DNA from: a virus
Direction: 5' to 3' (one strand)
DNA length: 55,616 nt
Virus record (IMG/VR): IMGVR_UViG_3300045242_000161
Location: 1 to 55,616 of that record
The notes beneath the pieces were generated by a model. The model saw nothing but the letters and a program-made list of their open reading frames with translations. It ran no database searches and was not told the DNA's origin. Of the stretch, positions 14,148 to 40,953 are shown piece after piece (positions within the stretch are counted from its first letter, which is position 1; each line of letters starts with the position of its first letter). The position numbers were made by a program, and so were the translations under genes.

Positions 14148-14176
14148 TTGCGATAATTCTGCGGCCATGCTATAAT
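14148..14176 (+). promoter_or_regulatory. Sigma70-type promoter TTGCGA-N17-TATAAT
   Basis: -35 TTGCGA at 14148-14153, exactly 17 bp, perfect -10 TATAAT at 14171-14176. It belongs to the same TTGCG class as the promoters in front of the - strand transcription units. No protein gene follows on the + strand before the strong terminator ending at 14306, so it should drive a short transcript. Confidence 0.75.
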
Positions 14177-14182
14177 ACTGCG

Positions 14183-14306
14183 GACGCGGTTACAAAACGC
14201 GCAAGGCATAGGCCCTCTCCTAGGCAACATGCGAACGATGAGCTTCTGAGCTATGATAGACAAGCCTCAGGGGTGGACCCGCTACCCATATAGCGGGTCC
14301 CTTTTT
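14183..14306 (+). ncRNA. Candidate small RNA (about 124 nt) between a TATAAT promoter and an intrinsic terminator
   Basis: The segment begins about 7 bp after TATAAT and ends at a perfect 10-bp terminator stem with T-tract. Internal pairings are visible: GCAT/ATGC with TAGG-CCCTCT-CCTA presents the pyrimidine loop CCCUCU, and CTGAG/CTCAG closes a second arm. The CCUCUCCU stretch is complementary to Shine-Dalgarno sequences, so a translation-repressing sRNA is possible. No + strand open frame with a ribosome site occurs inside. The function is inferred; only the promoter, the stems and the terminator are seen. Confidence 0.6.
14275..14306 (+). terminator. Intrinsic terminator
   Basis: Stem GGACCCGCTA (14275-14284), loop CCCATA, stem TAGCGGGTCC (14291-14300), then C and five T. 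It is a perfect 10-bp GC-rich stem with U-tract only in the + orientation, ending the candidate sRNA and protecting the convergent - strand operon. Confidence 0.85.
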
Positions 14307-14331
14307 GGTCCTTCTAACAAGCTCTCTCGCA

Positions 14332-14592
14332 CTAGTGGCAATCTGTACGCGTATATCCCAACGAGTCTTTCTTAGATGTGCAGTTGACAGATCGACCGCC
14401 ATCATTGAATTGTGAGTGTGTGTAACCGAGCGAGTCAGTCTTGCTCGTCCCACTGAATGATTGGCCATCGCGGTTACTGCCATTGTAGTGCGTGTAACCG
14501 AGCGAGTCCGTTTTACTGGTGATACGTTGTGCGGTGGCGAATCCGAGCATAGTGGCCGAGGCGACAAGAGCGGTGGCGATGAGGAGGCGCAT
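14332..14592 (-). CDS. Secreted repeat protein with three SKTDSLGYTH-type repeats
   Basis: 86 residues from the ATG at 14592 (AGGACC upstream); the longer frame to 14658 overlaps the preceding gene and is not needed. Residues 1-21 form a signal peptide (RLLIATALVASATMLGFATA). The mature part is three tandem repeats of about 22 residues: TSKTDSLGYTH twice and TSKKDSLGYTR once, with Y-N/F-N and G-R/S motifs between them. Two cysteines lie near the C-terminus. Short exported repeat proteins of this style occur in bacterial genomes. The role during infection is unknown. It is the last gene of the - strand operon. Confidence 0.7.
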   Translation of the reverse strand: MRLLIATALVASATMLGFATAQRITSKTDSLGYTHYNGSNRDGQSFSGTSKTDSLGYTHSQFNDGGRSVNCTSKKDSLGYTRTDCH

Positions 14593-14600
14593 TTCAGGTC

Positions 14601-14993
14601 CTAGCCGCGTGGATGTTGATTGATGAACGACTGGTAGGCAGGCTGAACGTCGGGACAAGGTTTCGTGCCCAGACGGTGCATCTCACTGAAAACATACAGC
14701 GTGCCCGCCCCATTCTTGACGAAGGCAGACTTGGAGGCGGATCCCTGGATCTGGGACCAGTCGATCTCTTTGACGCGACCTTTGATGGTCTCCATGCTCA
14801 TACAACCGCCACCCCAGGGCTCGCGGCCGACGGATCCGTTATCAATAGATTCGCGTTCCCATCGAACCCTGTCTTCAGGTGTAATTGAATTCTCAATCGC
14901 AGAGACCCCGGAGAAGAGGCCCCAGCCAACCAATCCAATTACTGTTAAGCTAACAGTTGCATTCAGCGGAGTAACCTTAGCTTCTTTGGCCAT
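14601..14993 (-). CDS. Small membrane-anchored or exported hypothetical protein
   Basis: 130 residues. After a short basic N-terminus (MAKEAKVTPLN) there is one hydrophobic segment, ATVSLTVIGLVGWGLFSGVS, suggesting an N-in membrane anchor. The soluble part is mixed and contains one cysteine in WGGGCMSMET and one in GTKPCPDVQ. A TTGCGT-N18-TATAAG promoter lies 33 bp upstream (15026-15055), so the gene starts its own transcript together with the repeat protein downstream. No family recognised. Confidence 0.6.
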   Translation of the reverse strand: MAKEAKVTPLNATVSLTVIGLVGWGLFSGVSAIENSITPEDRVRWERESIDNGSVGREPWGGGCMSMETIKGRVKEIDWSQIQGSASKSAFVKNGAGTLYVFSEMHRLGTKPCPDVQPAYQSFINQHPRG

Positions 14994-15025: not shown

Positions 15026-15055
15026 CTTATAGAGGTAACTGCCATCATTACGCAA
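15026..15055 (-). promoter_or_regulatory. TTGCGT-type promoter (spacer 18)
   Basis: On the - strand: TTGCGT (15055-15050), 18-bp spacer, TATAAG (15031-15026). It is upstream of the membrane-anchored gene starting at 14993. The only member of this promoter class here with an 18-bp rather than 17-bp spacer. Confidence 0.65.
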
Positions 15056-15066: not shown

Positions 15067-15420
15067 TCAGGACTCTGAATTAAATATGGATGGATCGTTA
15101 TCCTCTTTGGTCGGTATGAAATGCGCGTAGATGTTGCCCACTTTCAGTAATTCTGCTTCCATCATTTCGATTTCTTTGAGCAGTTTCGTAGCCCAGATGG
15201 CAGCGTTTCCTACAATCAACACCTCTTCGTCAACGAAGGTGGTTTCACTGTCAGCCGCGATCAATCCTTTGCAGCCATTCTTCAACTGGTCCATCGACCA
15301 ACCGAGTCGCCGGTTGCGACGCCGCGTCTCATACACCTTCTGGCGCGGATCAGTCTCGGGATCGGCTGGGACGTTGGTAGGCGATGAGGCAGTGTTTGCC
15401 GCAGTAGGATCTTCCTGCAT
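15067..15420 (-). CDS. Hypothetical protein
   Basis: 117 residues from the ATG at 15420 (GGAG 9 bases upstream); a GTG at 15435 would add five residues. The N-terminus is low-complexity (QEDPTAANTASSPTNVPADP). The centre is basic (YETRRRNRRLGWSMDQLKNG), and the second half is helical with hydrophobic spacing (AIWATKLLKEIEMMEAELLK). Its start lies inside the end of the GcrA-like gene (about 70-bp overlap). No recognised family; the basic patch could bind nucleic acid. Confidence 0.55.
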   Translation of the reverse strand: MQEDPTAANTASSPTNVPADPETDPRQKVYETRRRNRRLGWSMDQLKNGCKGLIAADSETTFVDEEVLIVGNAAIWATKLLKEIEMMEAELLKVGNIYAHFIPTKEDNDPSIFNSES

Positions 15421-15856
15421 AACTGCGTTCTCCACAGAAGATGTATTTCTTGATGGTCCGCTCCATCCCCCACATTGGCCATTGGCAGGTTACGGCGGGG
15501 CCAAATGACGGCGGTGTATACGGCGTCGGTTGAATTGTTGGTCCAACCAGTGTAGGGATTTCTACAACCTCAGGAGTTGGAATCTCAAGGGCCTTGCGAC
15601 TACTGTAGCGGGCTCGGGAGGCGCGCTTCTGAGCGTTCTTCCGGAGTCTCCCACACTCTTTACACCGTTGAGTCGTGCGCGGTCCAAAGAACTCAGTTCC
15701 GCAGTCGGCACAGGTCTTTAGCCCAGATCCCTTTTGAGTGACGGCAGTAGACGTAGCCGTAGAACTCGAGCCAGTCGATGACTTCGTCGAGAGTTCCTCC
15801 TGCGACGATAAGTCGTGTGTCCGGGTTATGAATTTCTCCAAGGAATTGCTTTCCAT
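15350..15856 (-). CDS. GcrA-like zinc protein with extra N-terminal zinc ribbon (start uncertain)
   Basis: The open frame has 168 codons. Residues 49-70 (CADCGTEFFGP...RCKECG) look like a zinc ribbon followed by a basic stretch KNAQKRASRARYSSRK. The last 45 residues contain C-Q-W-P, then FCGERSYAGRSYCGKHC and AY, matching the C-terminal C-x-W-P...F-C-G...Y-C-x-x-H pattern of GcrA cell-cycle regulators of Alphaproteobacteria. The usual N-terminal GcrA helix-turn-helix is not evident. The only ATG gives a 160-bp out-of-frame overlap with a well-supported 74-residue gene, and residues 1-45 look like alternate-frame sequence. The true start, or a frameshift, is unresolved. Likely host transcription interference. 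Confidence 0.6.
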   Translation of the reverse strand: MESNSLEKFITRTHDLSSQEELSTKSSTGSSSTATSTAVTQKGSGLKTCADCGTEFFGPRTTQRCKECGRLRKNAQKRASRARYSSRKALEIPTPEVVEIPTLVGPTIQPTPYTPPSFGPAVTCQWPMWGMERTIKKYIFCGERSYAGRSYCGKHCLIAYQRPSRSRD

Positions 15857-17602: not shown

Positions 17603-17631
17603 AGAATAGCGTAATTCTGCGGAATCCGCAA
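17603..17631 (-). promoter_or_regulatory. TTGCGG-N17-TATTCT promoter
   Basis: -35 TTGCGG (17631-17626), 17-bp spacer with GCAGAATTACGC, and -10 TATTCT (17608-17603), upstream of the SNF2 helicase. The spacer half GCAGAATTACGC is shared with the promoter at 23161-23189, which suggests an additional bound factor or recent duplication. Confidence 0.75.
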
Positions 17632-17830: not shown

Positions 17831-19776
17831 TTCGAGTCTCCCCAGGTTGCGGCTACTTTACTATCGACAACAACAGGTATCTCCAACTGCACACAGTCTT
17901 CCATGATCGAGGCCTGTTCCCGTGCTACCCTCTCACTGGTTACCGAGAATCCAAGCGCGTCGTGTTCCGTGATCAGCGGTAGGTGACCGGCACGATAGCA
18001 GTTGACCATAGCCTGCTTCGTTTGATCCGCTGCCGATCCCTGAATCCGTCTATTGAGCGCCTTATTCAGGAACATATACTCACCGCCTCGCATAGGGAAG
18101 CGGCATCTGCGGTTGTATATGGTGGTGATGTAACCGAGCTGCTTAACCATCGTCTGAGCATCTCTAGCCAAAGGCTGGACGAATGGCACACGTTCATAGA
18201 ATCTATCGAGCAGGGCTTGGCCCTCGGTTCCAGCAACTTCGACGGTTCGACCATTGATCACTTTATGGGTGGTAGGTAGACCTAATTCATGGCAGAGTTT
18301 AGCACCGCCCATGCCGTATGTAATGCCCAAGAATATCGTCTTGGCGTGTTGGCGGGAAATGCCGCCCATCCATTTGGCACACATACCGTGATAGTCGGTT
18401 CGTGGATTCTCGTTGAAGATCTTAACTGCTTCCGCGGCCCCGCGTAACCGCAATATAGACGCGTAGTGCAAGGATAGCCGCGGCTCCTGTGATGAATAAT
18501 CGGCATTGTGCCACAATTCACCTTCTTCCGGCAACATGAGACAGCGGACTAGTTTCTTGATCTCTTCATCGCGCGATGGCAGTTGTTGAAAGTTCGGGTT
18601 AGACGATGAGAACCGGCCCGTAACAGTGCCGTAACCGCTTCCATCGTCATCTTCGCGTCGTAGAGGATGAAACTCAGGGTGGATTCGTCCGTTCTTGACA
18701 TGGCGGAATACATGTCCGTCGATGAAGGTGGTCCTCGCCTTGTTGTATCTCCGCAGTTCCAGTATGTCTCCAATGACGGAGGATTGTGTGGCGTTTTCTT
18801 CAAGCCAATTCTTCTGGACGGAGGGTTTGTCCGTCTTGGTCCGAGGTAAGGAGATGCCGGCCTGTACACAGGCTCGCGCGATCGTCTCATTCTCCCACGC
18901 CGATACGAGGACTCCTGTGGCATTTTGAATACGCCTGATGCAGTCGAGTTCTTTGTTTTGGAGTTTGATCCTTGCCTGTTCCGCTGCATCGAGATCAACA
19001 CGAACGCCGCGCATACGCATCGCCACACAGACGGTGATGACATCACGCTCTAGGTCTGCGAGCTCTTTCAGCCCTTGTTGAGCGATCTGCGGTTTGAAGA
19101 AGTCGTATAGTCTCAGGGCTAGAGTCGCGTCCATCTCGGCATACGGCCCAACGTACTTGGCAGGCAATCTCCAGAGATTGTCGTATATATTTTTGACGCC
19201 GTAACCCCCGGCAACCTTCTGTAGGAGAGAGTCGTCTTTGCCAACCCCAAGGATATCCTTGGAGAGATTGTCCAGGGAGTATGACAGACGGTTCTCGTCC
19301 AGGAGAGCGGCGAGACCTTGTACGTCAACCGCACCATTGTAAGGTCTGATCCCCATACGGTTGCACCAGCCCAGGTCGTAAAGCGAATTGGCGGCAACCA
19401 TCTGCACATTAGATCTACCCAACTGCTCACGGAGCCAGGCGATTACGTCTCCGTCGAAGTTGCCTTCGGGATGACGAATCGCGTAATAGGCCGATCGACC
19501 ACAGGAAGCCACCGCAACTCCGATTGGGTAATCGTCAGCGGTTGGGAAGGCCCAAGCACTACCGACTGTTGTAAGGGTGGTATCTCGGGTTTCCCAGTCA
19601 ATTGCGGTTACTCCTTCTATCGGGATGAATTCCGTAGGTGGCACCCAGTTAGACTCATAGTTAGGCGTGATCATTCCCTTGGGCTCGAATAGCGTTGTGC
19701 CGCCCACCGTTGGGCGTGTCGCGGTCCTGACAGGAGTGCGTGTGGGTTTGGCTGGTTCGTCCCAGAAAAGATTCAT
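17827..19776 (-). CDS. DNA polymerase A family with 3'-5' exonuclease domain
   Basis: 649 residues, replicative polymerase. Exonuclease motifs: AIDWET (D60, E62), NSLYD (D134) and YAEMD (D216). Polymerase motifs: A, DYSSQEPRL (D426); B, KTIFLGITYG (about 479-488); then NRRIQGSAAD (576-585); and C, EHDALGF (H605-D606). There is no 5'-3' nuclease domain. Two differences from PolA consensus are notable: motif A has SQEPR instead of SQIELR, and motif C has Ala607 where Glu is usual. The gene overlaps QueE by 4 bp and leads into a 50-residue coupled gene, within the QueF-DpdA-clamp-QueE-polymerase operon. Confidence 0.93.
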   Translation of the reverse strand: MNLFWDEPAKPTRTPVRTATRPTVGGTTLFEPKGMITPNYESNWVPPTEFIPIEGVTAIDWETRDTTLTTVGSAWAFPTADDYPIGVAVASCGRSAYYAIRHPEGNFDGDVIAWLREQLGRSNVQMVAANSLYDLGWCNRMGIRPYNGAVDVQGLAALLDENRLSYSLDNLSKDILGVGKDDSLLQKVAGGYGVKNIYDNLWRLPAKYVGPYAEMDATLALRLYDFFKPQIAQQGLKELADLERDVITVCVAMRMRGVRVDLDAAEQARIKLQNKELDCIRRIQNATGVLVSAWENETIARACVQAGISLPRTKTDKPSVQKNWLEENATQSSVIGDILELRRYNKARTTFIDGHVFRHVKNGRIHPEFHPLRREDDDGSGYGTVTGRFSSSNPNFQQLPSRDEEIKKLVRCLMLPEEGELWHNADYSSQEPRLSLHYASILRLRGAAEAVKIFNENPRTDYHGMCAKWMGGISRQHAKTIFLGITYGMGGAKLCHELGLPTTHKVINGRTVEVAGTEGQALLDRFYERVPFVQPLARDAQTMVKQLGYITTIYNRRCRFPMRGGEYMFLNKALNRRIQGSAADQTKQAMVNCYRAGHLPLITEHDALGFSVTSERVAREQASIMEDCVQLEIPVVVDSKVAATWGDSK

Positions 19777-20462
19777 GGTATCTCCAGATATTTGTGGATC
19801 TGTAACTGGGCCGTGTAACCGTATTGCATAGCGGTTCTGGCGACTAAGGCACGGTTGTTGCCGTTGGTATTTTCTTCCGGTGTGTCAACCGGTGTTATGT
19901 AGACTGTTGAGTTAGGAGGCGGACGGGAGAGAAAAACCTTCGGCCCATCTGTTCTTTGCGTGTTGGTGTAAGGTAATCCATCGGAACTGTCAGTGTGCCC
20001 CTCCAGCAGGGGGTACTTCCAATACTTGGCGTGTTCCCGAATCTTTGGATGGACTAATGGAGTTTTTGGCGATACTACTATGGTGGTTGCCAGTAACCAA
20101 TCCTGCCAAATAACTCCTGCCGTTTCTACCTGTATTGGATAGCCGGCAGACCAGAGCAGTTCAACAAGTTTCAGGAGGTTCTGTCGGCAGGGTTCTCCTC
20201 CTGTCAGGACTACCAAGGTTTCCTTACGTCTTGCGAGTTCTTTAATCTGCCGGAACATCTCATCCGGAGACATATATGGATCACGGTCATCATCCCACTG
20301 TGTATCACACCACCAACATCTCAGGTTACAACCGCTCATCCGAACGAAGACGGCACGCTGTCCGGAGAATGGGCCCTCTCCCTGTAGTGTCAGGAAGATC
20401 TCATGGACCTGTAGGCGGTCGGGGTTGGTCTCTTTGGCACGAACAGGATTAGTTCCGCGCAT
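19773..20462 (-). CDS. queE: 7-carboxy-7-deazaguanine synthase (radical SAM)
   Basis: 229 residues. Converts 6-carboxytetrahydropterin to 7-carboxy-7-deazaguanine. The radical-SAM cluster motif CNLRCWWC (C45, C49, C52) is followed by DTQWD, and LTGGEPCRQ is the glycine-rich SAM motif. The N-terminal FLTLQGEGPFSGQRAVFVR fits QueE, where Q-G-E-G-x-x-x-G binds substrate. The gene overlaps both neighbours (sliding clamp upstream by 14 bp, polymerase downstream by 4 bp), so base synthesis and DNA synthesis are co-expressed. It is intact. Confidence 0.93.
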   Translation of the reverse strand: MRGTNPVRAKETNPDRLQVHEIFLTLQGEGPFSGQRAVFVRMSGCNLRCWWCDTQWDDDRDPYMSPDEMFRQIKELARRKETLVVLTGGEPCRQNLLKLVELLWSAGYPIQVETAGVIWQDWLLATTIVVSPKTPLVHPKIREHAKYWKYPLLEGHTDSSDGLPYTNTQRTDGPKVFLSRPPPNSTVYITPVDTPEENTNGNNRALVARTAMQYGYTAQLQIHKYLEIP

Positions 20463-21432
20463 TGGATTCCCCTCCTTCTGTGTATACGGCCATTAGTCCC
20501 TTGACATTTCGACCTGACCAGAAGGCTTTTGCAGATGTAAGTTGAATATGGGTTGCGTCTCGCAATACTTCTTCAAATCTGTCTACACTCCATCGAGTTA
20601 CATCCGATGTAGGAGTCTCGATTTCAATCTCAGCATCTGATAGAGTAGAGTCTACCACCATTTTATTAGGATGGATCGTGATCATTCCACGTACTGCCCG
20701 GGTAACTTCTGCGAAGGCAGATCTCCAGTCCCCTGGAATCTCCCAAAGATTATCTGGGACCTGATCAACGATAGAACTGGCCCGCGGATCGAATTCCTGA
20801 TTGATTGTCAACCCTCTAACAGCTGTTCCGTCAGGCCAACCGAAGACGATAAACGGTTGGGTTCCTTCGGCATTAATTGGGGCTGCGATTGTGGAGGGGA
20901 GTGATGGGGCTGTAGAAAGGAATTCTAGTACCCAATTGGGGAGTAGGGCCTTGATCGGGGCAGGTTCGGGTAGTTCGAACCGGGCTAGGGTCTTAGTGTC
21001 CGTGACGAAGATCCTGTTGCCATCAACCTGGGCTCCCATCGCCCATGGATATTGGGCGTCATTTGCGACATACCGTCGTGCCCGCATTAGAATCTGTAAG
21101 AATGCCGGGGTCAGTGGAGAACTACTATTCGGGAAGTATGCGTCCGGATACTCGTCGGCACTCCTGACGGTAATATTAACTTTAGTGCGGCCCGTCTTGA
21201 CCGTTAGTCGATTACCAAGTTCAAAGGTTGATGAATCGCTGATCGCCTGCTTGAGTTCTTTGGCAGGTGCCAAGAAATGAATAGGGAGGTCACACGGGCT
21301 GCGTGCGAGTAGGCGATCATTAGTTGCGTATACATAACCGCCTCGAACTAGGACGTGCGTCATATACGTGATAGCAGAAGTTGAGGCTAGTGCTCGCTCA
21401 ACCCGGCTTAAAGCCTGTGCAAGGGACGGCAT
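20449..21432 (-). CDS. Sliding-clamp-like (DnaN-like) processivity factor
   Basis: 327 residues. The pattern fits a divergent beta clamp: YMTHVLVRGGYVYATNDRLL (like the first-domain turn where bacterial clamps read ...DG.L.lsaTD.e), FLAPAKELKQAISD, and a C-terminal NVKGLMAVY like the usual ...P.V.GLIMPM end. It lies between DpdA and QueE/PolA. The family call rests on fold-like pattern and position beside PolA. Confidence 0.65.
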   Translation of the reverse strand: MPSLAQALSRVERALASTSAITYMTHVLVRGGYVYATNDRLLARSPCDLPIHFLAPAKELKQAISDSSTFELGNRLTVKTGRTKVNITVRSADEYPDAYFPNSSSPLTPAFLQILMRARRYVANDAQYPWAMGAQVDGNRIFVTDTKTLARFELPEPAPIKALLPNWVLEFLSTAPSLPSTIAAPINAEGTQPFIVFGWPDGTAVRGLTINQEFDPRASSIVDQVPDNLWEIPGDWRSAFAEVTRAVRGMITIHPNKMVVDSTLSDAEIEIETPTSDVTRWSVDRFEEVLRDATHIQLTSAKAFWSGRNVKGLMAVYTEGGESNARN

Positions 21433-21441
21433 GTATTCCTC

Positions 21442-22383
21442 CTAATCGAACAGGGACGTTTGGACGCCTACTTCTTTTCGTTCTTGGCTGAGGATCTCCT
21501 TCATGGAAATCATATTAAAGGCACACCGGAGAGGAAATGAGTCAGCGAGCTGCTTAACATCGAAGCCTCGCTCATCTATGATCCGCATCCAATGAGCACG
21601 TCTCTCAGATGAGAATGTGTCGAAATGTCGATCCTGGTCACTCAATCGCTTTGATTTACTGGAGATAGGCACCATCTTAAAAGACCCGCTCTCCACGGAG
21701 AAGAGGATATAGCCATAAGCAGACATATGGATCCATGATGCACTATCCACGCTGTGCCATGGCACCGATAATAGCATATCAGCGCCCGTCGTCGCAAGCC
21801 CATGAGTCCGAAAGTTTTTGGTAAGTCGGTGGACTCTTTGGGCCCAAGGTCTACGTTCACTCTCATGAACGTCATTTCGCGGACTCGCACAGATGTAATT
21901 ACCGTCAGCCGCCTGGGCCATTACTTCGTCAAGTCGACTCCAAGCCTCATTCTGGTGGAATACCGGCAATACAATCTTCCCAAAACCAGCTTCTAATCGC
22001 GTCTGGTTCCAATCACTGTCTTTGCACGCCTGGATCCGTTCCTCAGGTGTGGCAGTTTTGGTCCAGGAACCTGGGATAACGTCTAGGTTGATGAGCCATA
22101 TCTTATCACATACATCTTTGAAGGCGTTAATGCCGAACTGGAAGTTGACATGGACTTCACCAACAGTCATCCTACGACCTTTCGTCCAGGCCGTGAATGC
22201 ACCACTGTCTAGGATGACTTCTTTGAGTCGAAGGCCATTCCGTGAATACTGCAGTCCGGTCCGCTCTACGCTGCTCAAATACTGATCGTGACAAGAGAAT
22301 AGGCGGTACTCCATCCTGGGGATGTAGGGCACGAATTCCTTGGAAAACTGGAACCCGCTGAAAAAGAACTTCTCAGTCATCAT
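21442..22383 (-). CDS. dpdA: DpdA-type DNA transglycosylase (TGT-like) inserting 7-deazaguanine
   Basis: 313 residues from the ATG at 22383; the upstream frame to 22464 is the end of QueF in another frame. It is a distant relative of tRNA-guanine transglycosylase, which swaps guanine for a 7-deazaguanine in DNA. Signatures: ILDSGAFTAW (N-terminal D-S-G-A-F with catalytic-type Asp), LINLDVIPGS, IVLPVFHQNEAW, and THGLATTGADMLLSVPWHSV near the C-terminal substrate region. The start overlaps the QueF stop. The combination with QueF predicts preQ1 as its substrate. DpdA subtype cannot be assigned by eye. Confidence 0.85.
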   Translation of the reverse strand: MMTEKFFFSGFQFSKEFVPYIPRMEYRLFSCHDQYLSSVERTGLQYSRNGLRLKEVILDSGAFTAWTKGRRMTVGEVHVNFQFGINAFKDVCDKIWLINLDVIPGSWTKTATPEERIQACKDSDWNQTRLEAGFGKIVLPVFHQNEAWSRLDEVMAQAADGNYICASPRNDVHESERRPWAQRVHRLTKNFRTHGLATTGADMLLSVPWHSVDSASWIHMSAYGYILFSVESGSFKMVPISSKSKRLSDQDRHFDTFSSERRAHWMRIIDERGFDVKQLADSFPLRCAFNMISMKEILSQERKEVGVQTSLFD

Positions 22384-22816
22384 TCTGCCAGGTGATAGAC
22401 GGTTGGAAGGAGAGCCCACCGCGCGGTGAGAAGTAGCCTGTGATCTCGAGCTCTGCCGGATCAACCGCTTCGATGAAGTCGCTGGCGATGCGTGCGATAA
22501 CTGCCTCGTGGAAGGCTTTTTGATTGCGATAGGATTGTAGGTAGAGTTTTAGACTCTTGCTCTCGACACACTTCTCATTAGGAGTGTAGACGATGCGGAT
22601 CTTCCCGAAGTCAGGTTGACCCGTCACTGGGCAGAGACAGGTGAACTCATCTCGTTCGGATTCGATCGTGACAGAGGATTCAGGATACTCCATCATGGGA
22701 TTTGGAAATGTGTCCAGCGTGAGGACATTCGGCTCCATAGGTGTCTCTGTCCGCACACCCAACGTGTGGAGTTGGATGGGCGGTTGGCGACGTGGCCTAA
22801 GTGGGGACGTGCTCAT
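22373..22816 (-). CDS. queF: NADPH-dependent preQ0 reductase-like QueF
   Basis: 147 residues. QueF reduces the nitrile of preQ0 to the aminomethyl group of preQ1. Catalytic residues are in place: LCPVTGQPDF (C62, D69) and AFHEAV (H103, E104), with spacing 7 and 41 as in short-form QueF, and CVESKSLKLYLQSYRN for NADPH binding and assembly. It overlaps the small wHTH-like gene upstream by 4 bp and DpdA downstream by 11 bp. Because all catalytic positions are kept, I favour a real reductase over a QueF-like amidinotransferase. The DNA base would then be preQ1 or a derivative. Confidence 0.9.
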   Translation of the reverse strand: MSTSPLRPRRQPPIQLHTLGVRTETPMEPNVLTLDTFPNPMMEYPESSVTIESERDEFTCLCPVTGQPDFGKIRIVYTPNEKCVESKSLKLYLQSYRNQKAFHEAVIARIASDFIEAVDPAELEITGYFSPRGGLSFQPSITWQNDD

Positions 22817-23136
22817 TCGAACAGATTACCTCCTTCTTTTGCCTTGATGTTACGTGGGTTGGTGTCGGATCGCCGTATATACTGGGGTGGATGTAGGACG
22901 AGATTGGGCAGGCACCAGACGACGACGCGGTTGTATGTGTCATCATATGAAGCGACGATATCGCGCTTCATCAACCTTGGAAGTTCGCGTCCAACATCTT
23001 TCGGATCACGCTTCGAAAAGACGTGGGTGTAATCAATCAGATAGTTCTCAATGTCGTTCGCCGCAAGGGGTCTGTTTGGGTCAATATTCAAGACTTCCAA
23101 GACTGCTGCGGTGACTTTAGCATCATCGTCAATCAT
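22813..23136 (-). CDS. Small winged-helix-like protein at head of the QueF-DpdA operon
   Basis: 107 residues, the first gene after a TTGCGT-N17-TAGGAT promoter. Helical N-terminus (DDAKVTAAVLEVLNIDPNRP) and a segment like a winged helix (DVGRELPRLMKRDIVASYDD then a beta hairpin NRVVVWCLPNL). A DNA-binding or autoregulatory role fits its leader position, where a 9-bp hairpin with GCAA loop precedes the start. No named family. Confidence 0.6.
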   Translation of the reverse strand: MIDDDAKVTAAVLEVLNIDPNRPLAANDIENYLIDYTHVFSKRDPKDVGRELPRLMKRDIVASYDDTYNRVVVWCLPNLVLHPPQYIRRSDTNPRNIKAKEGGNLFE

Positions 23137-23141
23137 AGGAA

Positions 23142-23163
23142 GATCCTCAGTTGCCTGAGGATC
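23142..23163 (-). promoter_or_regulatory. 5' UTR hairpin with GCAA tetraloop
   Basis: Perfect 9-bp inverted repeat GATCCTCAG / CTGAGGATC with loop GCAA on the transcribed strand (23151-23154 as TTGC on +). It begins at the -10 element of the promoter and ends 5 bp before the start codon of the wHTH-like gene. It could be an operator for that gene's product or an RNA stabiliser. Confidence 0.55.
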
Positions 23164-23189
23164 CTAGCGTAATTCTGCCAAATACGCAA
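23161..23189 (-). promoter_or_regulatory. TTGCGT-N17-TAGGAT promoter of the QueF-DpdA-clamp-QueE-PolA operon
   Basis: -35 TTGCGT (23189-23184), 17 bp, -10 TAGGAT (23166-23161). Spacer contains GCAGAATTACGC, as in the promoter at 17603-17631. The five overlapping genes downstream appear to form one transcript. Confidence 0.78.
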
Positions 23190-23197
23190 GCCCAGGA

Positions 23198-23223
23198 CTA
23201 CGGGAAGATTGCTCTTCCCGTAG
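23198..23223 (-). terminator. Strong hairpin after the DUF932 gene (no U-tract)
   Basis: Perfect 11-bp stem CTACGGGAAGA / TCTTCCCGTAG with a GCAA tetraloop on the - strand, between the DUF932 stop (23235) and the next promoter. No T-run follows, so it may be a Rho-dependent or 3'-end stabilising hairpin rather than a classical intrinsic terminator. Confidence 0.5.
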
Positions 23224-23234
23224 CCTTGCGGTAA

Positions 23235-24266: not shown

Positions 24267-24296
24267 TTGGTACTCCTTGAATATAACGTGCAGATG

Positions 24297-24329: not shown

Positions 24330-24331
24330 GA

Positions 24332-24610: not shown

Positions 24611-24634
24611 TGAAGCCTCCTTTCGATACGTCTA

Positions 24635-31891: not shown

Positions 31892-32524
31892 TCATGTATT
31901 CCAGTATCTGTCTACAAAGGTTCGCGCGGCGGCGATATGGTAGTAATTTTCGGTGCCTTTATTGGACCATAGGATACGACCTCGCCACTCACCGGCATCT
32001 ACTTTGACCGTAAACTCTTCTCCAATCTCACGCCTCCAGGGTTGGGCCTCCAGGACCAGTGACATATCGGTTTTGATGAAGGCTTCGTCCTGCGTGCGAC
32101 CACGTTGGAACCGCCTCGCGATGGCATGGATGCTGATCTGGCATATCGGCCGCGGGTAGAAACGGAATGAAGCCCGACCGAAGCTGTACTCAAAACCGGT
32201 GAGTGCGATGCTCTCCTCAAACTCCGCCTTATTCTCCCAGTGCTCAATCCGCATCTTCGAAGAGGTCATGCGGTAGTCCAATAGGCACAGGTTCTTCTTC
32301 GATCTGTCGATTATCAAAGGGGCGAGGCGAAACTCATTTGGCAATAACTCCACCATCGCGTGGAACTCATCCAACTGCTGCGGCTTGAAACAGGAGTGCC
32401 GCTGTTTCACCCAGCGCGCGGCGGTTTGTTCGATCTTATCGACGCCTAAGCAATATTTTTCATCCTCACGGTCAACACAGCGGATCAATTCACGTGCCTT
32501 TCCCATGTACTCGGCCGGTATCAT
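31892..32524 (-). CDS. Hypothetical protein with conserved IHAIARRFQRG segment
   Basis: 210 residues. Helical N-terminus (ARELIRCVDREDEKYCLGVD), a mixed middle (APLIIDRSKKNLCLLDYRMT), then ICQISIHAIARRFQRGRTQD and a beta-rich end (EEFTVKVDAGEWRGRILWSN) finishing ARTFVDRYWNT. First gene behind the 32550-32578 promoter and 12 bp upstream of the glycosidase. Not recognised. Confidence 0.55.
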   Translation of the reverse strand: MIPAEYMGKARELIRCVDREDEKYCLGVDKIEQTAARWVKQRHSCFKPQQLDEFHAMVELLPNEFRLAPLIIDRSKKNLCLLDYRMTSSKMRIEHWENKAEFEESIALTGFEYSFGRASFRFYPRPICQISIHAIARRFQRGRTQDEAFIKTDMSLVLEAQPWRREIGEEFTVKVDAGEWRGRILWSNKGTENYYHIAAARTFVDRYWNT

Positions 32525-32549: not shown

Positions 32550-32578
32550 AGTATAGACCCAGTCTACAGGAAACGCAA
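32550..32578 (-). promoter_or_regulatory. TTGCGT-N17-TATACT promoter
   Basis: -35 TTGCGT (32578-32573), 17 bp, -10 TATACT (32555-32550). It appears to serve the 210-residue gene, glycosidase, small membrane genes and folE as one unit. Confidence 0.78.
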
Positions 32579-32583: not shown

Positions 32584-33249
32584 TTAATCGTCAAAGATCA
32601 TTCCGCCCGTCTTATAAGAGGCAGGTGTGAGGCGGGCCACAGGATCCTTCGCCCATCTTAGGATGTCGGGAATGACGTTTGGCAGTTCCAGGTAAGTACA
32701 CCAGGCTTCTAGGCGCTCGAATTTGCGAATCACGTCCGCCACCGCTTCTTGCGTTGGTGCGTGGATCGTGCACATGCCTCCCTTACCGCCAGCGGGTTTA
32801 CGCATCTGGCTGAGACGGCCGAACAGTTGTCCACCAATCTCCCAATGCCCCCGGACGTGCTTGACCGTTATCATCGGAAAGTCACAAGATAGGGTGTGAA
32901 CATCATGGATGTTACAGCGGCCGTCTTCGACCCGAAGATAGCGGCACGCTAATTGACCTTGGCGGTCGGCTTGGAGGTCCGAGAAGAATTCGACTTCTTT
33001 CCCGTTGAAGGTTTCAACGCGTGATGGAATGTCTGGGGGTCGCGGTTCACTGGGGATCCAGTCCATGGTAAATGGACGGCAACACGCACCGCAGTGTGAA
33101 GGGCACTTGTAATCGCGGAACACGGACGGGCTCACGCGTAGCGGTTGTAAGGGGTAGTCGATCCCTTTGAATGTGAAATCCTCCGCCGCCACTGCGTGCA
33201 AGTATTTGGCGACCTTATCAAGCGAATCCATCAGGGTATGGTAGGGCAT
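32584..33249 (-). CDS. YkgJ-family cysteine-cluster protein
   Basis: 221 residues. The eight-cysteine pattern CPSHCGACCRPF, CRYLRVEDGRCNIHDVHTLSC plus FPM fits the YkgJ/CxxCxxCC family, which binds zinc or an iron-sulphur cluster. Another cysteine pair (GMCTIH; AWCTYL) follows. These proteins have been proposed to act in radical or metal chemistry, but their reaction is not established. Close to FolE/Que genes but on its own promoter. Length is in the family's upper range. Confidence 0.75.
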   Translation of the reverse strand: MPYHTLMDSLDKVAKYLHAVAAEDFTFKGIDYPLQPLRVSPSVFRDYKCPSHCGACCRPFTMDWIPSEPRPPDIPSRVETFNGKEVEFFSDLQADRQGQLACRYLRVEDGRCNIHDVHTLSCDFPMITVKHVRGHWEIGGQLFGRLSQMRKPAGGKGGMCTIHAPTQEAVADVIRKFERLEAWCTYLELPNVIPDILRWAKDPVARLTPASYKTGGMIFDD

Positions 33250-33255: not shown

Positions 33256-33284
33256 TACCTAGCATGGCTAGTGCTTCGTCGCAA
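33256..33284 (-). promoter_or_regulatory. TTGCGA-N17-TAGGTA promoter
   Basis: -35 TTGCGA (33284-33279), 17 bp, -10 TAGGTA (33261-33256), only 7 bp before the ATG of the YkgJ-type gene at 33249. The predicted transcription start is at about the ATG, so the mRNA may be leaderless. The promoter overlaps the end of the upstream gene. Confidence 0.65.
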
Positions 33285-35070: not shown

Positions 35071-35345
35071 GTAATCTTCTTCGGGTGTATTGTGTAGGCG
35101 GTCAGCGGTCGGTTTGGCTCACCATCCGGGCGTAAGGGCAGCGCCTTTGACTGGGTCTTCCAGGTCTTCATGACGGCTGTCAGCGATGGGAACTTCATCG
35201 CGTGCTCTACGTTCGCGGTTGTTGTGGCGTATCCACGCCCTGCGAAAGCCTCTGCACTGAAGGTCTCGAGGTAGATGTGGTTCGTGTCGTTGAAGAAGTC
35301 CTCTTGGTCGTACACGATGACCATGACCCAGGTTTCAGTCATCAT
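35067..35345 (-). CDS. Small hypothetical protein
   Basis: 92 residues, TETWVMVIVYDQEDFFNDTN then FSAEAFAGRGYATTTANVEH and FPSLTAVMKTWKTQSKALPL. Small alpha/beta protein; overlaps the upstream 58-residue gene by 11 bp and the ParB-like gene by 4 bp. Not recognised. Confidence 0.55.
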   Translation of the reverse strand: MMTETWVMVIVYDQEDFFNDTNHIYLETFSAEAFAGRGYATTTANVEHAMKFPSLTAVMKTWKTQSKALPLRPDGEPNRPLTAYTIHPKKIT

Positions 35346-35511
35346 CCTTTTCCATCACTAGGTGGGTATACATAGGGAGCATGTCGCATATATGTATTAT
35401 GGCCTGTTCCAATTCGGGTGTATTCTCGTCTTCGTCCATTGCCTGGTCTTCAAGCGAATGGCAGATATCGTGTATCTTCGCGGCAAGCGCGTTTTGGGAT
35501 CTTTTGTTCAT
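35335..35511 (-). CDS. Small acidic helical protein
   Basis: 58 residues from the ATG at 35511: NKRSQNALAAKIHDICHSLE, then DEDENTPELEQAIIHICDML, ending VMEKDDD. Acidic and helical. Within the short-gene row at the head of the ParB unit. Found by reading the gap. Not recognised. Confidence 0.5.
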   Translation of the reverse strand: MNKRSQNALAAKIHDICHSLEDQAMDEDENTPELEQAIIHICDMLPMYTHLVMEKDDD

Positions 35512-35519: not shown

Positions 35520-35693
35520 TCAGGTCCTCAGTTGGCTGTTAAGAAGGGCGCATTGGATGTTGGCGTCTGACTCTGTCAGATCTCGCACAACAACATCCGT
35601 ATGCTTTGGCGATTGGCATAGCTTCACGATGTAGTAACTGCCCGTGTCATATTCATATACGCGGTATTCAAGGATTGTGTGTAGGTGCAGCAT
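35520..35693 (-). CDS. Small hypothetical protein, first gene of the ParB unit
   Basis: 57 residues from the ATG at 35693 with GGAGG 5 bases upstream. LHLHTILEYRVYEYDTGSYY, IVKLCQSPKHTDVVVRDLTE: a small beta-alpha protein. Transcribed from the - strand promoter at 35922-35950 through a leader of about 220 nt that contains a perfect hairpin. Confidence 0.55.
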   Translation of the reverse strand: MLHLHTILEYRVYEYDTGSYYIVKLCQSPKHTDVVVRDLTESDANIQCALLNSQLRT

Positions 35694-35733: not shown

Positions 35734-35762
35734 TTGCGTGCTGGTGGAGTGCACGCTAGGAT
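35734..35762 (+). promoter_or_regulatory. TTGCGT-N17-TAGGAT promoter toward the primase-helicase
   Basis: -35 TTGCGT (35734-35739), 17 bp, -10 TAGGAT (35757-35762) on the + strand. It faces the - strand promoter at 35922-35950, so the two transcripts overlap for about 150 bp. Its leader of about 200 nt contains the hairpin at 35843-35875. Confidence 0.72.
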
Positions 35763-35921: not shown

Positions 35922-35950
35922 CTTATAGACCCGTTCTTTGAAAAACGCAA
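35922..35950 (-). promoter_or_regulatory. TTGCGT-N17-TATAAG promoter of the ParB unit
   Basis: -35 TTGCGT (35950-35945), 17 bp, -10 TATAAG (35927-35922). Its start would be at about 35915, within the leader of the opposing primase transcript. Confidence 0.75.
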
Positions 35951-35967: not shown

Positions 35968-38244
35968 ATGTCAGATACTTTTAGCTCTTTCATCGACTCC
36001 CGGACTCATTCCACAGTATTGGCGGCGGCGTTAGATTATGCGAGCAAAGGATATCCCGTTTTTGCGTGCAAGGCGGATAAAACGCCGAATGTCCCCAACG
36101 GTTTCATGGATGCGTCCACCGATCCTGAGACCATTCAAAAGATGTTCACCAAACGTGGCTCTATTATGTTGGCTGTACCTACAGGAGAGGTCAGCGGTTT
36201 TGATGTTATCGACATAGATCCACGCAATCAAGGTGACCAGTGGCCAGGATTGGCGCAGTTACCACCAACACATCAGCACGGGACACCATCGGGTGGCTCA
36301 CATTATATCCTCAAACATTTCACAGGTATGCGGTTATCCCGCGGGTACACCAAAGATGGCATTCCCTATGGTATCGCAGATGGTGTTGATGTTCGGGCTG
36401 ATGGTGGCTACGTATGCGTCCCACCGTCTCCTGGATACTCGGTAGCAGTTAATATTGATCCTGAGCTCTGGGCAGAATGGCCTGCCTGGCTGATACCTCT
36501 AGGGTTACGAGGGCGTGCTGGTTTAGATGGTATCCACCGCCGGGTTGTCTCCAATGGCACCCAACCGCTGTCGTTGGATCAAGCCAAGAAGAAGATTGAT
36601 AAGTTATTGGAGACCGTCCCCAACTTCCCAGAAGGGGGCAAACACCATGAGCTGTTGAAGCTTGGGCTGTTGATGGGAGGCATCGCCTGCTGGACGAATT
36701 GGACGCCCGAATTCCTATGGGACTGGGTCAAACCGCAGTTACCCACAACCGTTCGGAATTACGACAATGCTCGCAAGACCTTTATCTGGGGGTTTTCAAA
36801 AGGTGAGGCAGCACCTATTCATGCGGATTCGGCGTATGTTCCATCATCCACGAGGGTGGGTTTATTAGGACGACGGCAGTGGACGCCACCTGTTGCTCAG
36901 ACGTCTGGGCAGTTGGCGGACATGCCCTCCTTGAATTCACCTGATGATGTTATCACTTGGATGAATACGCGTTACGCAGTTGTTAATCACCATGGTAGAA
37001 TATTAGTAGTGCAGGAGGTGTATGATCTCGAGTTATCGCGAACACGGACAGAATATCTAGAATTCGAGAGCCTGCGCAAGATGCACATGGACCTGACGGT
37101 TATGGCGAATAATCGTTCTATTGGAGCCGCGGATTATTGGCTGGCGAATCCTAACCGGCGGTTTTATAGCAGTGTTGTATTCAACCCGAAAGATGATCAA
37201 CAGGATCCGCTTGCATACAACCTTTGGCGTGGTTGGGCGGTTACTCCAAAAGGCGGTCCTGAGAAGTGTAAGAAATTTCGAGACCATATTAAGAACGTAT
37301 TGTGTGACCAAAATCCAAAGACGTATACCTATCTGATGAAGTGGCTCGCTAGGATGGTCCAAAAGCCATGGCTCCAGGCGGAGGTGGCAGTTGTTATCAA
37401 GTCTAGCGAAGGGGCAGGGAAAGGGACGTTGACGAATGCACTATTACGTATTTTAGGGCGGCATGGTTTTATGACAGCCCAGAGTCGCCATGTGGTAGGG
37501 GATTTCACCGGGCAGTTGCACGATTGTATTCTGTTGGTGGCAGAAGAGGCATTCTTCGCTGGAGATAGAGTCAACAGATCAACACTGAAGGCGATGATCA
37601 CAGAACCTTACCTGTCGATTGAGCCAAAGGGGCTGCCAGCCTTTCAGTCGCGGAATTATCTGCACATCATGATGAATTCTAATGAGGAATGGGTTGTTCC
37701 CGCCTCACTTGAAGCAAGGCGGTTTTTTGTATTGCGGGCGTCGGATAGTATGAAGGGAAATAGGCAGTATTTCACAGAGCTCTATGAGGAGTTGGAGAAT
37801 GGCGGTTTAGAGGCGTTCCTTGAAGTTTTGTTGAATATTGATATAGGCGATTTCGATATACGCGAATTTCCAAAGACGGAGGAGTTGAGGAATCAACAGG
37901 CGCAGTCCCTGTCTGGTCCAGATGCCTGGTGGTTTGCAGTTTTAGAAAGAGGCAAGATTCTTCCTGATGACTTGGGTTGGCCGTTAGAGACTGAAAGAGG
38001 GAATGGTGAGTATTTTGTGTCGAATGAGACCTTATTGCGGTCGTACTCATTTTGGACGCAGGAGAGGCGGAATAGACAACCACCATTAGGAAAGAGGAAT
38101 TTGGGTGTTTTCATGAACCGGATGGGGTTTGAAGTTTCCAATATAGGCAGTGATGGAACACGGGTGTATGGTCGAAATGTTGAGTCATGGGAGGAGGCGA
38201 AAGAGAAATGGACGGTCAGAACCAGGATTGAGGTGGAAGACTAG
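35968..38244 (+). CDS. Primase-polymerase (PrimPol) fused to SF3-type helicase
   Basis: 758 residues from the ATG at 35968 (GGTGGAG upstream), not the TTG at 35938. Residues about 15-190 form a bifunctional primase/polymerase domain: GFDVIDIDPRNQG (metal Asp pair), HGTPSGGSHYI, DGVDVRADGGYVCVPPS. Residues about 440-620 are a helicase ATPase: IKSSEGAGKGTL (Walker A), CILLVAEEAF (Walker B), and LHIMMNSNEEWVVP (motif C-type Asn), resembling DUF5906-type SF3 helicases. It should start DNA synthesis and unwind at the origin. The iteron array directly downstream supports that. Confidence 0.88.
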   Translation: MSDTFSSFIDSRTHSTVLAAALDYASKGYPVFACKADKTPNVPNGFMDASTDPETIQKMFTKRGSIMLAVPTGEVSGFDVIDIDPRNQGDQWPGLAQLPPTHQHGTPSGGSHYILKHFTGMRLSRGYTKDGIPYGIADGVDVRADGGYVCVPPSPGYSVAVNIDPELWAEWPAWLIPLGLRGRAGLDGIHRRVVSNGTQPLSLDQAKKKIDKLLETVPNFPEGGKHHELLKLGLLMGGIACWTNWTPEFLWDWVKPQLPTTVRNYDNARKTFIWGFSKGEAAPIHADSAYVPSSTRVGLLGRRQWTPPVAQTSGQLADMPSLNSPDDVITWMNTRYAVVNHHGRILVVQEVYDLELSRTRTEYLEFESLRKMHMDLTVMANNRSIGAADYWLANPNRRFYSSVVFNPKDDQQDPLAYNLWRGWAVTPKGGPEKCKKFRDHIKNVLCDQNPKTYTYLMKWLARMVQKPWLQAEVAVVIKSSEGAGKGTLTNALLRILGRHGFMTAQSRHVVGDFTGQLHDCILLVAEEAFFAGDRVNRSTLKAMITEPYLSIEPKGLPAFQSRNYLHIMMNSNEEWVVPASLEARRFFVLRASDSMKGNRQYFTELYEELENGGLEAFLEVLLNIDIGDFDIREFPKTEELRNQQAQSLSGPDAWWFAVLERGKILPDDLGWPLETERGNGEYFVSNETLLRSYSFWTQERRNRQPPLGKRNLGVFMNRMGFEVSNIGSDGTRVYGRNVESWEEAKEKWTVRTRIEVED

Positions 38245-38513
38245 TTCTCAGCCTCTCAGTCAGTTCTCAGCACAGTTCTCCGCAGGTTATCTTATTGATT
38301 ATCTTTATTGTTTTATAAGAAGCTGAGAACTATAAGAATAAAAGCTATGTTGCACAACAGTATGCGAATCTTGTTCGTCGTCGTCGCTCAAAAAATATTT
38401 CGCGAGCTCGGCGCTGCAACCCAAACAGTTCTCAGCGTTCTCAGTTCTGCATGTAACACCATGAAAACATTGATAAAAACTCGCTGAGATAGTTCTCAGC
38501 GGCAAACTTCTCC
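38243..38513. other. AT-rich iteron array, candidate replication origin
   Basis: Consensus AGTTCTCAGC occurs exactly at 38243-38252, 38262-38271, 38427-38436 and 38491-38500. There is an inverted copy at 38322-38331 and variants at 38274-38283, 38437-38444, 38443-38450, 38483-38490 and 38505-38513. The centre (38285-38320) is very AT-rich, like a DNA-unwinding element. No gene of its own is seen in this 370-bp gap. Position right after the primase-helicase fits an origin; a repressor-operator array is the alternative. Confidence 0.65.
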
Positions 38514-38527
38514 GCGCAAGAATATTA

Positions 38528-38576
38528 CCCAAAACAGCTGTTTTTGGGCTTGTGGTGTGCAGAATCAGGCTATATT
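38528..38576 (+). promoter_or_regulatory. Palindrome and candidate promoter upstream of terminase genes
   Basis: Near-perfect palindrome CCCAAAACAGCTGTTTTTGGG at 38528-38548. It abuts CTTGTG (38549-38554), followed at 16 bp by TATATT (38571-38576). It looks like an operator next to a late promoter, about 42 bp upstream of the small terminase start. Alternatively the palindrome could end the primase transcript. Confidence 0.5.
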
Positions 38577-38617
38577 ATGAAATTCGTGACATATTGCGTC
38601 TGTGCAAGGAATATCAC

Positions 38618-39112
38618 ATGGCACTCTTGTTCATTCAGGGAGATCCTACGCCTCTTCCTACTGTTCCGGATACTATGTTTAACTATCCACCTGAAGGTAT
38701 GACTGTAGAAGCCGCAGCGATTTGGGATTGGTATGGCGATAATCTGCCGATGTCAATCAAGACATATTTCAAACTGCATCACATTCGACTATTCGCTGAT
38801 ATGTGCGAACTCGAGGCCTGGTTAGTTAGGAACCATTTCAAGGATGAGCCTGCGACGGTTGTAAACCGCATGGGCGATGCGAAGATGAATCCCGCGTTAA
38901 CTGCTTGGATGTTCGTCTGGAACCAGGTGCAGAAGATCCGGAAGGAGTTGGCGATTCATCCGATGTTCTGTAACACGCTAGATTCATGGCAGAGAGGGGC
39001 GTTGTTTGAGATTCCAGGAGACGGAAACGTTCAGATGCCATCGCGTATTCAGTATTTCTTGCCTGAGAATGGGCGTCGGTATGAAGGGATAGATGAGGAA
39101 GAAGGATCTTAG
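38618..39112 (+). CDS. Terminase small subunit-like protein
   Basis: 164 residues from the ATG at 38618 (AAGGA upstream); the frame from 38552 has no ribosome site. Sequence MTVEAAAIWDWYGDNLPMSI then YFKLHHIRLFADMCELEAWL and a long basic helix (WNQVQKIRKELAIHPMFC) is similar in pattern to the phage P27-type small terminase helical core. It lies directly before the large subunit. It probably recognises packaging DNA. The family is assigned mainly by position. Confidence 0.7.
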   Translation: MALLFIQGDPTPLPTVPDTMFNYPPEGMTVEAAAIWDWYGDNLPMSIKTYFKLHHIRLFADMCELEAWLVRNHFKDEPATVVNRMGDAKMNPALTAWMFVWNQVQKIRKELAIHPMFCNTLDSWQRGALFEIPGDGNVQMPSRIQYFLPENGRRYEGIDEEEGS

Positions 39113-39113
39113 G

Positions 39114-40490
39114 ATGGCAGAAACTATCGAAGTAAAACCGCAACCCGGACCACAGACCGATTTCCTGGCCACGTCCGCGGATATTGCGATATACGGTGGT
39201 GCGGCTGGTGGAGGTAAGACCTGGGCGTTACTGATGGAGGCAATCAGATATCAAGAGAAGGTAGCCAATTTCATGGCTGTCTTCTTCCGTAGAACTACGC
39301 CGCAGATTAAGAATCCAGGGGGCCTATGGGATGAGTCTGTCGCACTGTATACTGGTTTCGCCAAACCACGGCAGCAGGGACTAGAATGGATATTCCCGAT
39401 GGGTGGTCGGGTGAAGATGGCCCATATGGAGTATGAGGCGAATGCTCACGACTGGCAAGGCTCACAGGTGCCACTTATCTGTTTCGATGAACTCACACAC
39501 TTTACTGAGCGACAGTTTTGGTATCTCTTCAGTCGAAATCGTTCAACTACTGGAGTGCCTGCATACATACGCGCCTCCTGCAACCCAGACCCTGATTCGT
39601 GGGTTGCTGGTTTCATTGAATGGTGGATTGACCAAGACACAGGTTACGCTATCCCTGAAAGATCCGGGGTGGTTAGGTGGTTCGTCAGGATAGGTGAGAA
39701 GATTGAGTGGGATGATAGTCGGGAGGCTTTGATACAGAGGTTCCCGATTCTACTCCCGAAGTCGGTTACTTTCATCCCGTCGAAATTATCTGATAACCGC
39801 ATTCTAATGCGTAAGGATCCTGGATATCTTGCCAATTTGATGGCGTTAGGTAGAGTAGAGCGTGAACGCCTATTGAATGGTAACTGGAGAGTCCGTGCTC
39901 AGGCAGGCTCTTACTTCCCCCGACATCTGGTAGGGACGATTGACGCGGTGCCTACGGATGTTATTCGCTGGGTCAGGCGATGGGACCTAGCGGCGACAGA
40001 AGTATCTGAGAAGAATCCGTCTCCCGATGCGACGGCAGGTGTGTTGATGGGCCTAAGGCGTAACGGTAGGGTGGTGATTGCCGACGGGATACACATGCGG
40101 CGTAACGCACACATCGTTAGAGACGCCATCAAATCAACTGCCATGCGTGACAAGTCGATGTATCCGGCGTTAACTACTGTTGTGCCGCAGGATCCTGGAC
40201 AGGCAGGGAAGGATCAGGCAGCATCATACATTGCGTTTCTCGCAGGATACAAGGCGAAAGCGATAAGAGAGACCGGCCCAAAAGAGACTAGGGCCGAGCC
40301 TCTGTCAGCACAATGGCAGGCGGGGAATGTTGACCTTGTCGCAGGGCCTTGGAACCGTGACTATCTCCAGGAGATGGAGGGGTTCCCTGACGCGGATCAT
40401 GACGATTACGTCGATGCCAGTAGTGGTGCCTACTATGAGATGGTGTCGAATGTCAGTGATTATGAGAGGAGGAGGGCGTTGGCGGCTTGA
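39114..40490 (+). CDS. Terminase large subunit
   Basis: 458 residues from the ATG at 39114; a GTG/ATG at 39093 overlaps the small subunit. ATPase: YGGAAGGGKTWALL (Walker A), PLICFDELTHF (Walker B and catalytic Glu), SCNPD (coupling motif). Nuclease: RRWDLAATE with a later DADHDDYVDA supplying the acidic metal residues. It packages the concatemer into the head. The pac/cos type cannot be read; the circular joining of this sequence fits circular permutation or a concatemer. Short C-terminus compared with T4 gp17. Confidence 0.93.
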   Translation: MAETIEVKPQPGPQTDFLATSADIAIYGGAAGGGKTWALLMEAIRYQEKVANFMAVFFRRTTPQIKNPGGLWDESVALYTGFAKPRQQGLEWIFPMGGRVKMAHMEYEANAHDWQGSQVPLICFDELTHFTERQFWYLFSRNRSTTGVPAYIRASCNPDPDSWVAGFIEWWIDQDTGYAIPERSGVVRWFVRIGEKIEWDDSREALIQRFPILLPKSVTFIPSKLSDNRILMRKDPGYLANLMALGRVERERLLNGNWRVRAQAGSYFPRHLVGTIDAVPTDVIRWVRRWDLAATEVSEKNPSPDATAGVLMGLRRNGRVVIADGIHMRRNAHIVRDAIKSTAMRDKSMYPALTTVVPQDPGQAGKDQAASYIAFLAGYKAKAIRETGPKETRAEPLSAQWQAGNVDLVAGPWNRDYLQEMEGFPDADHDDYVDASSGAYYEMVSNVSDYERRRALAA

Positions 40491-40898
40491 TTATCCTCTT
40501 TTCTCCAGTATGTCCATGTTAACCGCTGGACTTCCGTAGGTGCTGGGCGGACCGTTGACGAAGAGTCTATCGTGCAGCGTCAACCGCGTATCTTGGAGCG
40601 ATACCGGCATACGGACCTCACGGACCTCATCCACGCCTTGGTCAACGACGTTGGAGGAGGCTGTGAACAGTCGGTTGACGAATAGGCTTGCGGTAACGGT
40701 GCCACGACATTCGATCCAGACGCCATAGTAGGGTAGCCGGTTGAACCCGCCGCCGTCATTGGTCCACTCGATGTGTGCGACCACGTCATAGGTGCCGGGA
40801 GGGATCAGGTAGTCGGTGTACCACGAGGCGGTCTCATAAGACTGCCGGTAAGTAGTGGGTTCAGTGATAGTGGCGGTTCCGATCTTGTAGTTGCTCAT
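40491..40898 (-). CDS. Beta-rich orphan gene opposing the packaging operon
   Basis: 135 residues, on the - strand between terminase and portal. Its last base follows the terminase stop immediately. SNYKIGTATITEPTTYRQSY, YLIPPGTYDVVAHIEWTNDG, YYGVWIECRGTVTASLFVNR: alternating hydrophobic strands like a jelly-roll or carbohydrate-binding domain. There is no signal peptide. A TTGCGT-N17-TATAAG promoter lies just upstream, so it is expressed with the early set while its neighbours are late: a moron-like insertion. Confidence 0.6.
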   Translation of the reverse strand: MSNYKIGTATITEPTTYRQSYETASWYTDYLIPPGTYDVVAHIEWTNDGGGFNRLPYYGVWIECRGTVTASLFVNRLFTASSNVVDQGVDEVREVRMPVSLQDTRLTLHDRLFVNGPPSTYGSPAVNMDILEKRG

Positions 40899-40924
40899 GA
40901 CTTCATCTCCTTTTCCATACTCAA

Positions 40925-40953
40925 CTTATAGTTTAGATGGGAGAAATACGCAA
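40925..40953 (-). promoter_or_regulatory. TTGCGT-N17-TATAAG promoter of the orphan gene
   Basis: -35 TTGCGT (40953-40948), 17 bp, -10 TATAAG (40930-40925), 27 bp upstream of the ATG at 40898, with AAGGAGATGAAG as ribosome site. The only early-class promoter seen inside the structural region. Confidence 0.78.

Follow-up and report, generated by a model that had tools for sequence, protein, structure and literature searches.

The window analysed here is a whole IMG/VR virus record (IMGVR_UViG_3300045242_000161; 55.6 kb, 51% GC), in which we describe a promoter family with the consensus C-TTGCG-T, a spacer of 17 bp and TA(T/G)nnT, with C before TA. No end repeats of at least 12 bases were found in the 55.6-kb record. 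The late structural genes occupy the plus strand (41–55.6 kb and 0–13 kb) and encode a contractile tail with sheath, baseplate wedge and hub, the head and baseplate parts being Pam3-like. The predicted early genes run mostly on the minus strand from 41 to 14 kb, and their products include a helicase, a DNA polymerase, a clamp, a ParB-like protein, a DUF932 protein, an amidoligase/GGACT pair and a 7-deazaguanine set, while the primase and terminase genes lie on the plus strand.

An earlier sequence-only reading had listed a set of TTGCG-type sites, and all 13 are present, with 24297 corrected to 24301–24329. For minus-strand sites that reading gave the low end; the -35 box starts 28 bases higher, and we name these sites by their -35 start. 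On the plus strand, CTTGCGA-N17-TATAAT with an extended -10 (TGC) at 14148–14176 stands ahead of a putative noncoding RNA, and CTTGCGT-N17-TAGGAT at 35734–35762 lies upstream of the primase gene. All other sites are on the minus strand. TTGCGT-N18-TATAAG (15026–15055) lies upstream of open reading frame (ORF) 14601–14993, ATTGCGG-N17-TATTCT (17603–17631) precedes the helicase gene, and CTTGCGT-N17-TAGGAT (23161–23189) precedes 22813–23136, QueF, DpdA, clamp, QueE and DNA polymerase. CTTGCGG-N17-TATATC (24301–24329) stands before the DUF932 gene, the variant CTTGTGA-N17-TATATA (24635–24663) before ORF 24332–24610, and CTTGCGT-N17-TAGTAT (27349–27377) before 26775–27326, QueC and QueD. The amidoligase/GGACT pair is preceded by CTTGCGT-N17-TATCAT (29351–29379), ORF 31892–32524 by CTTGCGT-N17-TATACT (32550–32578) and ORF 32584–33249 by CTTGCGA-N17-TAGGTA (33256–33284). 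Finally, CTTGCGT-N17-TATAAG occurs both at 35922–35950, ahead of the small ORFs 35520–35693 and 35335–35511 and then the ParB-like operon, and at 40925–40953, before ORF 40491–40898.

The spacer measures 17 bp in 12 of the 13 sites, in agreement with the earlier claim of a single exception; this is 15055(-), with 18 bp to TATAAG or 17 bp to CTATAA. Every one of the 12 sites spaced at 17 bp has TTG at the -35 box and TA at the start of the -10 box, both being partly selection criteria. At all sites but one, TTG is followed by CG rather than AC, the canonical choice in E. coli though not throughout the alphaproteobacteria, and the -35 box is effectively 7 bases long (C-TTGCG-T), with C ahead of TTGCG at all sites but one. 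The information content is 10.5 bits for the -35 box and 6.3 bits for the -10 box, a -35-led pattern. The sites lie outside coding sequence and upstream of genes, with exceptions at 14148, 17631, 33284, 35734 and 35950, and 8 of the 13 end 22–38 nt ahead of a start codon. The claim that such sites always mark the start of a transcription unit therefore stands for most of them and needs qualification for the rest: 14148(+) precedes a noncoding unit and no ORF, 35734(+) and 35950(-) are 205 nt and about 230 nt upstream, and two sites are nearly leaderless, 17631(-) ending 9 nt before the helicase start and 33284(-) 6 nt before its ORF.

The family is genuine and greatly exceeds chance expectation. 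The genome has 8 occurrences of TTGCGN-N17-TANNNT, compared with a mean of 1.25 and a maximum of 5 in 300 shuffles, and CTTGCG-N18-TA, which corresponds to the 17-bp spacer, occurs 12 times against 1.16, a count reached by none of 100 shuffles; the comparison with shuffled sequence that the sequence-only reading had proposed thus bears it out. CTTGAC-N18-TA is at chance (1 versus 1.59) and TTGAC-N17-TANNNT is absent from the genome. When the spacing was varied, the count peaked exactly at 17 bp, with 12 occurrences versus about 2 for other spacings. A gene map drawn by hand might be biased towards the motif, and an early hand-curated gene mask was partly motif-informed; we therefore re-called the genes blind to the motif, using only codon usage and ribosome sites, and rely on that result. 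CTTGCG then ranked first of 4096 6-mers for intergenic enrichment (16 of 42 occurrences versus 4.4 expected, p=2.4e-6), so that it is not equally frequent in coding sequence; the words ranked next, CTTATA/TATAAG and then TCCTAG (CTAGGA), come from the -10 region of the family itself. With a less refined mask based on longest ORFs, the enrichment of CTTGCG between genes was weaker (9 versus 2.9).

A position weight matrix (PWM) built from 12 sites was scanned over 111,000 positions (111 kb). The best 10 matches were all listed sites, and leave-one-out ranks were 3–34. The weaker members 24329 and 24663 score no better than coding matches by PWM or leave-one-out, as would be expected if chance or coding bias had made the motif and only some sites were promoters, but the core set falls far outside the shuffle and spacing controls and this explanation is hardly credible. 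CTTGTGG-N17-TATTAT at 38550–38578 (+), ahead of a gene that probably encodes a small terminase and containing a degenerate GCAGAATCAGGC, is a tentative 14th member, with a PWM score of 11.1 that is under some coding matches. The sequence-only reading had called the family genome-wide, which is incorrect: all 13 sites lie within 14–41 kb, the replication and DNA-modification half, whereas the late part, 51% of the genome, has none (P=9e-5).

Two sequence elements recur inside these promoters. The spacer sequence GCAGAATTACGC had been reported from two of them and is indeed present in 17631 (17609–17620, -) and 23189 (23167–23178, -), but with small length changes it extends to four, as GCAGAATTATCGC in 14148 (14150–14162, -) and GCAGAATACGC in 27377 (27365–27375, +), both reversed relative to the promoter. 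In the general form GCAGAAT-N(1-4)-CGC, the element occurs four times in the genome, in either orientation and always inside family promoters, against a shuffle mean of 0.41 and maximum of 2; part of it coincides with the GCG and CGC of the promoter itself. GCAGAAT-N-CGC probably serves as an operator at which a regulator of the phage or of the host would act. The second element, (A/C)(C/T)GC, stands directly before TA in six promoters (TTGCG-N14-[AC][CT]GCTA, 6 versus 0.09 expected), and TTGCGT-N13-ACGC is found three times versus 0.11 expected. All three excesses would be accounted for if a regulator read GCG(T)A...(A)CGC half-sites together with GCAGAAT-N-CGC, so that TTGCG was shared with an operator. 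However, 7 of the 13 promoters (15055, 24329, 24663, 29379, 32578, 35950 and 40953) have no second half-site and still carry TTGCG or TTGTG. As six of these seven keep the exact 17-bp spacing, an operator alone cannot explain the -35 box, and we consider operator-embedded promoters an unlikely origin of the family.

The promoter at 14148 has the best -10 of the family (TGC-TATAAT) and no gene downstream. About 100 nt past its expected start lies an intrinsic terminator, a perfect 10-bp stem at 14275–14300 followed by CTTTTT (to 14306). The stretch 14183–14306 (+) is therefore a candidate phage small RNA (z -2.2), about 120 nt long and equipped with a promoter and a terminator of its own; it has no match in Rfam. 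The noncoding stretch after this putative RNA contains two 34-nt direct repeats (14415–14520, 85%).

The sequence-only reading had left open whether the family serves an early regulon of host RNA polymerase or a phage-modified sigma activity. GcrA is a cofactor of alphaproteobacterial sigma-70, and the gene at 15350–15856 (-) encodes a protein with a C-terminal GcrA sigma-interacting domain (PF07750 1e-7, NF050816 6e-6, PDB 5yix 0.0015; weak to moderate scores). At its N terminus, a CxxC zinc ribbon replaces the GcrA DNA-binding domain, and we therefore call it GcrA-like rather than GcrA. It has no relatives in the phage or plasmid collections. The sigma-interacting domain points to an alphaproteobacterial host, with moderate strength because PF07750 also matched Sulfolobus among 14 control genomes. 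Binding of this protein to host sigma-70 could steer the polymerase to CTTGCG promoters, and both its lack of relatives in those collections and the uniformity of CTTGCG, which resembles a dedicated recognition site, are compatible with such a role. Against this, the gene is itself downstream of promoters of this family, so the protein cannot be strictly required and its initial expression must use unmodified host polymerase. DNA binding by the protein is hypothetical, and GANTC, the site linked to GcrA, shows no enrichment at the promoters (3 versus 3.0 expected). The encoded GcrA-like protein is a point in common with the GcrA-dependent promoters of Caulobacter, from which the family is set apart by this lack of GANTC enrichment and by the different N-terminal domain. 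A phage-encoded factor of this kind is thus doubtful. Doubtful to a greater degree is the stronger version, in which the zinc-ribbon/GcrA fusion would be a sigma-70 cofactor of a new type, shifting -35 recognition from TTGAC to CTTGCG and making the early genes a private regulon of the host holoenzyme. Of the claim for a modified sigma activity, what stands is the coding potential for a GcrA-like cofactor with an unusual N terminus; the position of its gene speaks against the claim.

A different origin for the -35 box might be sought in DNA modification. The minus strand encodes a complete 7-deazaguanine DNA modification set (19773–29973) that includes a QueF-II-type preQ1 synthase (TIGR03139 above cut-off), and the phage DNA may therefore carry dPreQ1. 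If 7-deazaguanine were inserted at GA, a TTGAC box would be modified and promoters could have evolved to TTGCG. The FolE/QueD/QueE/QueC/QueF/DpdA set is complete, TTGAC is rare between genes (5 versus 11.8 expected with the motif-blind genes, p=0.018), and the distantly related DpdA of phage CAjan is described, in a citation in PMC8306585, as modifying GA and GGC. Intergenic DNA, however, shows no depletion of GA itself, the TTGCG family is not seen in other DpdA phages, and the DpdA encoded here, which is closest to those of Dinoroseobacter phages, is only 26–28% identical to enterobacterial phage DpdAs and may have its own target motif. Such avoidance is very unlikely to have shaped the family.

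The simplest reading, to which we assign a probability of roughly 60%, is that early transcription would be carried out by host polymerase in an alphaproteobacterial lineage with non-TTGAC -35 boxes. The spacing of the -35 and -10 hexamers falls within the 16–18 bp of sigma-70 promoters, and the sites are carried only by early, replication and modification units, mostly at the leader lengths usual for such promoters. The scanned proteins include no phage sigma factor or RNA polymerase. Together with published alphaproteobacterial precedents for cTTGcc and TTGCG, these features give good sequence support to the host half of the earlier proposal. From them we infer that host RNA polymerase would transcribe the phage early and replication genes from sigma-70-type promoters, and that the host is probably an alphaproteobacterium. 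CTTGCG(T) would fit the preference of its housekeeping sigma factor, or be a well-tolerated version of it, in a lineage with C-rich bases rather than AC after TTG, with the spacer of 17 bp and a -10 built on TA as the remaining parts of the promoter. The YGC extension ahead of TA in six promoters probably aids weak -10 hexamers such as TAGGAT, and GCAGAAT-N-CGC probably adds an operator in four.

Known promoters provide partial parallels. Sinorhizobium meliloti housekeeping promoters have the form CTTGAC-N17-CTATAT; they share with the phage family the TTG triad, the 17-bp spacer, C before TTG and C before TA, but have AC at -35 positions 4–5 where the phage has CG. For several alphaproteobacterial lineages, start-site maps in the literature show TTGnnn or cTTGcc instead of TTGAC. 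Primary promoters of Magnetospirillum gryphiswaldense read cTTGcc / TATaaT (PMC9549626), with C before and after TTG and the TATaaT -10 in common; the phage differs in having G rather than C at -35 position 5 and a strict 17-bp spacer. A start-site map of Gluconobacter gave ttGnnn as the -35 box (PMC5756330), and Zymomonas promoters, TTGNNN-17-TANNNN, share the TTG triad and the 17-bp spacer (PMC7566282). The same -35 box is used in living cells, as shown by the mapped Methylorubrum dcmR promoter PR1 (TTGCGC-17-TAACTA; PMC9320726) and by Cupriavidus infC, ihfA and rpsF, which are listed with TTGCG boxes (PMC9045368), but these are isolated promoters and not a uniform family.

Several points weigh against transcription by unmodified host polymerase. 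The published cTTGcc differs from CTTGCG, TTGCG is far more uniform in the phage than in the published consensus sequences, and these come from named alphaproteobacteria whose preferences may not be the host's. No usable signal came from plasmids of four alphaproteobacteria; the expected S. meliloti CTTGAC, the positive control, was not recovered either. In addition, the family is missing from all other phages examined, an Azospirillum phage and three from Rhizobiales among them. Conservation is consequently unusable as evidence.

Like the middle promoters of T4 (MotA box) and the CII promoters of lambda, the sites form a family of phage promoters marked by a recurrent non-canonical box upstream. 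None of the 13 has a T4 MotA box centred near -30 or a lambda CII-type TTGC-N6-TTGC around the -35, and CtrA sites are absent as well. No TTGCG excess was detected in 44 TerL or DNA-polymerase relatives from IMG/VR, and in 75 contigs with one look-alike site, further sites did not exceed chance. An unrelated viral contig of 64% GC (L094) contains one exact look-alike, TTGCG-N6-GCAGAATTACGCTA, which may be due to chance (about 0.4 expected, a rough estimate). At 5674–5698 (-) of this contig, an intergenic CTTGCGATGATGGCAGAATTACGCTATGG stands right at a start codon.

No near relative of the phage was found in the phage collection. TerL identity reached 54% at most with Rhizobium phages and was mostly 50–58% with IMG/VR contigs; TerL relatives in genomes came only from Firmicutes and other metagenome-assembled genomes, none from an alphaproteobacterium. 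The gene at 13238–13885 (+) encodes a protein of 215 aa that is secreted and carries a PEP-CTERM sorting signal at its C terminus (TIGR02595 above cut-off; PepA-like match E=5e-8), which is unusual for a phage and suggests an exosortase-bearing host. Between the primase and terminase genes, the noncoding stretch 38242–38515 contains (T/C)AGTTCTC(A/C)GC in five direct copies as well as inverted ones, a candidate replication origin or ParB-like binding site. An Amidoligase_2 gene and a gamma-glutamyl cyclotransferase-like gene form a pair amid the early genes (27721–29312, -).

If these are plain host promoters, the family would provide a ready signature of early-gene promoters for an undescribed phage group, as well as a clue to host sigma-70 preference, which is poorly known in most alphaproteobacterial lineages. 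If the specificity is instead due to a phage cofactor, this would represent a new way of redirecting sigma-70 at the -35 box.

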